NCBI GenBank assembly: GCA_029551285.1
Contig: JAKPFT010000018.1
Span: forward strand, 50,847-114,846
DNA: 64,000 nt
DNA from: a bacterium
GTDB taxonomy: Bacteria; Ratteibacteria; UBA8468; B48-G9; DSTR01
Direction of reading: 5' to 3'
The translations under genes and the position numbers were made by a program. This document shows, piece after piece, positions 2,270-64,000 of this stretch. Each line of letters opens with the position of its first letter. Position 1 is the stretch's first letter. The notes beneath the pieces were generated by a model. It was not told the DNA's origin, ran no database searches, and saw nothing but the letters and a program-made list of their open reading frames with translations.

Positions 2270-2375
2270 TCTCTCCTCCTGTGCCCTGCCCGGGTCCTGT
2301 GACAGACTTTAATTTTTCAGTTTTTTCTTGTTTCTGTCAATGGTTTTGCAACTGCTTCTTTCCCTACCCTTCCCC

Positions 2376-2643
2376 TGTCTAAAAAAGGAAGGGGACAGCT
2401 GGCGAACGAATTGCGAAGGCACAGATACAAGACAAGATGAAAAGCGGCAGCGTTCGGTAAGCGGACCGGAGAAGTTTATCCGGGACGCAATACCTTACTC
2501 GGCGGTGTCTCCAGCTCGCCACCTGGCGAGCGAGTTCGCCGAGCAACCGATTTCGGCGTAGTCCTTGTCTGTGCCGGAGCACTTTGAGTGAGCCAGTTCG
2601 TTCCCTTTCTTTTCATTCCTTAATTTCTTTTCTTTTTTTGACA
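2376..2643 (-). repeat. Dispersed structured repeat, copy 1 (element sense on minus strand)
   Basis: The reverse complement matches 63869-64000 (GTAGTGTCAAAAAA...AGGAATGAAAAGAAAGGGAACGAACTGGCTCACTCAA...GGCACAGACAAGGACTACGCCGAAATCGGTTGCTCGGCGAACTCGCTCGCC). It matches 47567-47798 more distantly (AGTAAGGTATTGCGTCCCGG). Imperfect ends TGTCTAAAAAA / TTTTTTTGACA. Confidence 0.85.
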
Positions 2644-2653
2644 CTACCCCTGC

Positions 2654-47465: not shown

Positions 47466-47530
47466 GGCAAAACCTGGTAAAACAGTATATTAACAGATTT
47501 CGTCTTTGACGGGAAAGTCTGCTGGTTTCC

Positions 47531-47824
47531 CTAAAATTCCGACCAGACGGAGGTTGTCCAGGAGTATGTCTAACTTCGGGAAGATTTCTGTGCACACGCC
47601 TTGTCGCAGACAAGACTACGCAGCCAATCGGTTACTGGTGCGAACTCATTCGCCAGGTGGCGAATTCAGACACCGCCCAGTAAGGTATTGCGTCCCGGTT
47701 GGACTTGCCCGGTCCGCTTACCGACCGCTGCCGCTTTGGCTGCTTGTCTTGTAGCTGCGCCCTCGGCTACCGTGGCTTGAAATCTCCCCTCGTTGACACC
47801 GTGTTTCTTATGTCGGAATTTTAG
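47531..47824. mobile_element. MITE-like unit: 13-bp perfect terminal inverted repeats flanked by a 7-bp direct repeat, containing structured repeat copy 2
   Basis: GGTTTCC|CTAAAATTCCGAC ... GTCGGAATTTTAG|GGTTTCC. TIRs 47531-47543 and 47812-47824; direct repeats 47524-47530 and 47825-47831. Confidence 0.8.
47567..47798 (+). repeat. Dispersed structured repeat, copy 2 (divergent)
   Basis: ATGTCTAA...CGCAGACAAGACTACGC..CAATCGGTTAC...ATTCGCCAGGTGGCGAAT...CAGTAAGGTATTGCGTCCCGG...GGTCCGCTTACCGA.CGCTGCCGCTTT...CTTGTCTTGTAGCTGCG...TTGACA, colinear with the reverse complement of 2376-2643. Confidence 0.85.
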
Positions 47825-47839
47825 GGTTTCCTGATAAGG

Positions 47840-63852: not shown

Positions 63853-63868
63853 CAAGGCGGAGAGGTAG

Positions 63869-64000
63869 TGTCAAAAAATGAATGAAAGAGGAATGAAAAG
63901 AAAGGGAACGAACTGGCTCACTCAAGCTGCTCCGGCACAGACAAGGACTACGCCGAAATCGGTTGCTCGGCGAACTCGCTCGCCCAGAGGCGAGCTCAGA
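63869..64000 (+). repeat. Dispersed structured repeat, copy 3 (cut by window end)
   Basis: TGTCAAAAAATGAATGAAAGAGGAATGAAAAGAAAGGGAACGAACTGGCTCACTCAAGCTGCTCCGGCACAGACAAGGACTACGCCGAAATCGGTTGCTCGGCGAACTCGCTCGCCCAGAGGCGAGC, near-identical to the reverse complement of copy 1. Confidence 0.88.

Follow-up and report, generated by a model that had tools for sequence, protein, structure and literature searches.

Introduction

REPs are short repeats without a target duplication, which in REP/BIME systems with RAYT transposases are dispersed and folded in intergenic DNA. The large RNAs of Rfam (HEARO, GOLLD, ROOL, raiA and OLE) have a complex covarying fold with conserved unpaired bases, and some of them are tied to mobile elements. 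Prokaryotic MITEs, such as the Correia elements of Neisseria and QMITE2 of Coxiella, are small and gene-free, have inverted ends and target duplications and are transcribed into stable stem-loops; those of the Correia type are also found a short distance upstream of genes (PMC10969869). The BOX elements of Streptococcus pneumoniae are modular repeats that have inverted ends and inner units in tandem; their RNA is extensively structured and is transcribed together with operons, and, like RUP and SPRITE, they are enriched between convergent genes (PMC3049150).

Here, we describe a repeat family with three copies in the window, the 64,000-nucleotide stretch of bacterial DNA that was analysed (Table 1). 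It is small and gene-free with inverted ends and target duplications like MITEs, modular with tandem units and extensive structure like BOX, dispersed as folded intergenic repeats like REP/BIME, and has a core with a complex covarying fold and conserved unpaired bases like the large Rfam RNAs. Unlike in MITEs such as Correia, the structure of the inner core is kept across genera while the ends differ, and one class of elements, class B, forms tandem arrays and lies before start codons at a set distance and in a set orientation. This set distance also separates class B from BOX, to which no sequence relation was found. In contrast to REP/BIME, the units are about 300 bp long and flanked by duplications, and the search revealed no Y1 gene linked to them; unlike the large Rfam RNAs, the family has no Rfam match, no associated protein gene that we could see, more than 100 copies and MITE-like ends.

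We consider it probable that these repeats are non-autonomous MITE-like elements carrying a selected RNA (or single-stranded DNA) core, with class B aimed just 5' of Shine-Dalgarno sites. With this family, a structured RNA that Rfam does not contain is added, and its covariation spans genera of a little-studied group. The family also points to a target rule under which a bacterial element would leave genes intact and insert directly upstream of ribosome-binding sites, even in operons. If this rule is true, two questions arise: how the transposase would find these places, and how a folded leader of 300-1200 nt can be inserted before dozens of genes and be tolerated.

Copies and classes of the repeat

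To collect the family, 99 copies were gathered from the genome itself together with their flanks, and 45 of them were used to build a covariance model (R1). R1 gave at least 150 matches to the repeat core in the 2.7-Mb genome, the last ones being partial copies; the sequence work covers the stretches around the matches. With copy 2 as blastn query, 63 places in the genome were found, for which 40 candidate stretches were scored, and a second query gave 73. The true copy number is probably above the match count, because many contigs start or stop within a copy. Class B copies lie at many contig ends of this genome (C9:39, C97:5, C31:42, C32:42, C96:38 and window positions 63864-64000), and class B repeats probably break the assembly.

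The same core is carried by elements with different inverted ends, namely class A (copy 2) and class B (copies 1 and 3). Single elements measure 251-356 bp, and the core (about 130-160 nt) has no conserved open frame. Class B is the commonest form and occurs as single or tandem units of about 300 bp, with an array period of 296-301 bp and arrays that reach four or more units. At L009:39-204 and L055:1406-1561, the hairpin reads CCCAC/GTGGG; these are a third sequence class, about 71% identical, and a hybrid copy, and judged by their sequence they suggest that segments are exchanged among copies.

Table 1. Repeat copies of the window and helices of the copy 2 core (window positions)
Feature	Position	Strand	Details
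Copy 2, class A element, 294 bp	47531-47824	+	TIR CTAAAATTCCGAC 47531-47543, GTCGGAATTTTAG 47812-47824
Copy 2 target duplication GGTTTCC	47524-47530 (left), 47825-47831 (right)		
Copy 2 conserved core	47603-47761	+	R1 match, E 6e-38; = G000:C14:98449-98607
P1/P2 5' strand	47603-47616	+	pairs with 47746-47761; takes in the long-range stem of the sequence-only reading
P3 5' strand GCAGCCAA	47620-47627	+	pairs with TTGGCTGC 47736-47743
P4 5' strand UCGGU	47628-47632	+	pairs with ACCGA 47720-47724
H1	47634-47681	+	outer stem 47634-47642/47674-47681
H1 hairpin, loop AGGT	ATTCGCC 47648-47654 / GGCGAAT 47659-47665	+	AGGT-loop hairpin of the sequence-only reading
H2	47684-47723	+	helix of this genome only; base competes with P4
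Copy 1, single class B element, 356 bp	2293-2648	-	ends GGTAGTGTC 2640-2648, TGTCACAGGACC 2293-2304
Copy 1 conserved core	2418-2575	-	
Copy 3, left part of class B element	63864-64000	+	ends at contig end C14:114846
Copy 3 core portion	63938-64000	+	interrupted by contig end

Structure and covariation of the core

The sequence-only reading had compared copies 1, 2 and 3 by eye and claimed that at least three stems are preserved by compensatory changes; all bases that it quoted are present in the DNA. Two of the stems stood up in the 45 own-genome copies. In the long-range stem (CACAG/CTGTG versus CGCAG/CTGCG), the changed pair is A-U in 32 copies and G-C in 13 and is never unpaired. The AGGT-loop hairpin is kept as GCTCGCC/GGCGAGC, as ATTCGCC/GGCGAAT and in the third version CCCAC/GTGGG, with about a quarter of the copies mixing arms at its base and the outermost pair being unpaired in 12 of 45. 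The stem drawn around the conserved loop (CGCCGA/TCGGCG) did not survive: only 73% of its cells are paired, two of its six pairs show a two-sided change, and other helices take its place. The 3' strand is a better partner for its left arm, the two forming P3, and the TCGGCG of the drawn stem pairs downstream as the outer part of H1 (CTCGGCG with CGCCGAG).

P3 exists in several variants, which are GCAGCCAA/TTGGCTGC, GCACCCAA/TTGGGTGC and GCAGGCAA/TTGCCTGC in class A and CGAAA/UUUCG in class B. A further helix that had escaped the first description, P4 (UCNNN/NNNGA), lies beside a conserved AATC and covaries in every genome (0 of 5000 shuffles were as good). H2 is shortened or absent in other genera. 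Near-invariant bases surround CTACG, AATC and GA-CGC-NNNN-GCTTT.

Within the genome, the model structure is paired in 92.4% of the cells of the 45 copies, with two-sided changes in 19 of 45 pairs (8.4 by shuffling) and a covariation score of 0.153 compared to 0.081 after shuffling. For the comparison between genera, we preferred a MAFFT alignment (19 copies, seven genomes), as it is not fitted to the structure. Here, the revised structure is 91.3% paired, two-sided changes occur in 26 of 37 pairs, and the covariation score is 0.462, against 0.167 for shuffled and at most 0.12 for slid controls; as the tested structure derives from the same sequences, the slid control alone is no proof, and the evidence lies in the shuffles and in how many pairs are changed. 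A model-guided cross-genome alignment, which is biased towards the structure, showed 40 of 45 pairs changed on both sides.

That the compensation is a by-product of recombination or chance among close palindromic repeats, without structural selection, is barely credible. It would fit the close kinship of the own copies, some of which mix hairpin arms as recombination between copies would give, and a tree-aware covariation test on the own-genome copies alone, which found no significant base pair because these copies are too alike. However, covariation between genera is far above the shuffled and slid controls, and R1, built from own copies, finds homologues in other genera, namely in five genomes of the same order with best E-values of 1e-11 to 1e-20, in which blastn found no homologue. 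The larger alignments, which include these genomes, could have lacked covariation and thereby contradicted the claim of selection on a structure rather than on a protein; they show strong covariation instead, so that compensatory change as in a structured RNA under selection is seen across divergent homologues.

Conservation of the core while the ends are exchanged argues for selection on the core itself. Most likely, it works as RNA, and less likely as folded single-stranded DNA. Its role may lie in the element's own spread or in making the insertion tolerable for the downstream gene. The helices around invariant unpaired CTACG, AATC and GA-CGC-NNNN-GCTTT, together with tandem arrays and insertions between operon genes, would also suit a self-cleaving or self-splicing RNA, by which an operon copy might be cut or removed from the mRNA while the downstream gene keeps its ribosome-binding site. 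We regard this as improbable, because an Rfam search gave no family above the gathering threshold, ribozymes and introns included.

Ends, target duplications and search for a transposase

Class A elements are about 294 bp long with 13-bp inverted ends (CTAAAATTCCGAC/GTCGGAATTTTAG), and their flanks repeat over 7-9 bp (z 3.0-4.4). Class B elements are bounded by GGTAGTGTCAAA...TTTGACAGAACC, with imperfect inverted repeats, and their flanks give a duplication signal only for a length of 8 bp (z 3.7). At C40, AACCATGA is duplicated exactly over 8 bp, at C60 the duplication is exact or near-exact (TGATTAAA/TGATTACA), and around copy 1, 6 of 8 positions match. Most class B duplications are degraded, which indicates that mobility is old or slow. 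In G001, a genome of the same genus, we found the empty site for copy 1, with 26 nt there compared to 397 nt in the window. In a genome of another genus (G021), 251-bp elements are bounded by GGTTCTGTCAAA ends with inverted repeats of 12 bp and more, and one of them has an exact 8-bp duplication (TCGGAAAA). The family is thus short, gene-free and present in many copies, with terminal inverted repeats and target-site duplications, as prokaryotic MITEs are. A solo end (TTTGACAGAACC) in G021:C1 (L103:1489-1550) lies between TACTTA repeats, 23 nt before an ATG; judging by sequence, a deletion or excision may have left it as a scar at this target position.

The search for a transposase was limited to the Y1 and ISL3 families and yielded none with these ends; no ISL3-type partner was found, nor an autonomous partner with exact ends in this genome or G021 (both incomplete). 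Of the 12 exact GGTTCTGTCAAA sites here, two (L119, L122) were considered as termini of an autonomous element but lie within genes and are due to chance.

The sequence-only reading had suggested single-strand hairpin transposition by a RAYT-like gene. Movement of the hairpin elements as single-stranded DNA by a Y1 (REP-associated) transposase would agree with their strong hairpin folding and with the Y1-type genes in five of the seven carrier or sister genomes searched. It is nevertheless very unlikely: Y1 enzymes leave no duplication, whereas these elements show duplications of 7-9 bp as well as inverted ends, and the only Y1-type gene of this genome is weak and is also represented in G001, which lacks the element. 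No Y1-type gene was found in the incomplete genomes G017 and G021, nor one linked to the repeats as in REP/RAYT systems.

Position of class B elements before start codons

The downstream flank is readable for about 45 class B arrays; these precede a gene and share its orientation. The script called the opposite orientation once, at C8_678, owing to a longer spurious frame; the true gene is visible there. The distance from the right end to the downstream start codon is 20-25 nt in 40 spacers (mean 22.25, sd 1.18), and that to the Shine-Dalgarno core is 13.65 nt (sd 1.15). For these values, mis-picked start codons were corrected by hand, and neither loci whose right ends are degraded nor the outliers C74 (31 nt) and C61 (14 nt) were counted. 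For copy 1, the distance is 23 nt, and the ATG (2267-2269) belongs to an aminotransferase-like gene.

Class B is often found between operon genes. Where an upstream gene shares the strand, its stop codon is in most cases no more than 17 nt away from the element, meaning that the element splits a close gene pair, and at four loci the upstream frame extends 33 nt into the element. The spacing is unchanged where 74-197 nt of free space lie upstream, so that lack of room does not explain it. The G021 elements also lie 20-23 nt before start codons, but in reversed orientation.

After the last class B unit, but not after inner units, a conserved A-rich stretch of about 60 nt follows (for example 2293-2370 of the window, minus strand), which holds the inverted repeat AAAGACT/AGTCTTT and stops before the Shine-Dalgarno site. 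A sigma-70 scan gave one weak site in copy 1, and a terminator scan gave none. The spacing from TTGACA to any -10-like box differs between loci.

In the reading that we prefer, a putative DDE-type transposase acting in trans would place class B just 5' of Shine-Dalgarno sequences. Such a landing would spare the coding sequence, and the copy would join the 5' leader, often inside an operon. Going by the sequences, targeting by the transposition machinery would then be the reason for the class B position. The main rival is leader selection, by which class B would primarily be a host 5' leader (a promoter module, an RNA switch or an mRNA stabiliser) copied before many genes, with the spacing reflecting the need of translation. 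The fixed position and orientation, the A-rich stretch ending before the Shine-Dalgarno site and the sense leaders in G008 and G015 all speak for a host leader, and the strict spacing, which could come from leader selection, together with the opposite orientation in G021, counts against targeting. Nevertheless, we hold a host leader to be unlikely. The translated downstream genes (pgk, clpB, mlaD-like, ilvE-like and others) share no common pathway, and target duplications and an empty site exist. Furthermore, the family is absent from G001 and the G021 copies are antisense. Compared with a riboswitch, the fixed place in the 5' leader is seen for class B and not for class A, which has the same core and no fixed spacing to start codons, and a shared downstream pathway is lacking.

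Returning to targeting, we tentatively propose a more specific form of it. Transposition may be aimed at translation-initiation regions, with insertion in a set orientation at about 14 nt from the Shine-Dalgarno core and 22 nt from the start codon, on the 5' side of both, and with a conserved RNA core (possibly catalytic or guiding) that is kept as the ends are exchanged. In the open-access papers that were searched, we found no earlier account of such a target rule or of the repeat family.

Distribution of the family

An improved model (R2) matched seven of 291 genomes, which are the own genome, the five of the same order and one of the same class (G031), and none of the about 256 genomes outside the class. 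A DNA pattern scan of the species collection with a subsequent R1 check left three MAGs of the same group, DRTY-6.bins.152 and FK_Sedi_B_Bin.251 (both Candidatus Omnitrophota) and JPMR_maxbin.046; the scan pattern is narrow and says little about distant homologues. Pattern matches in Clostridia, Uhrbacteria and others had no covariance-model support. Searches of phages, plasmids and viral contigs for an origin or a relative of the repeat gave one short weak plasmid match only. The repeat is an undescribed family, so far in only one little-studied bacterial group.

Two genomes of another genus (G013 and G015) have tandem units near genes with other ends (L067 and L075; GGAAAGACAGAAGCATT type in G015). 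One of the G031 copies (L135, G031:C53) directly adjoins a tRNA-like sequence.
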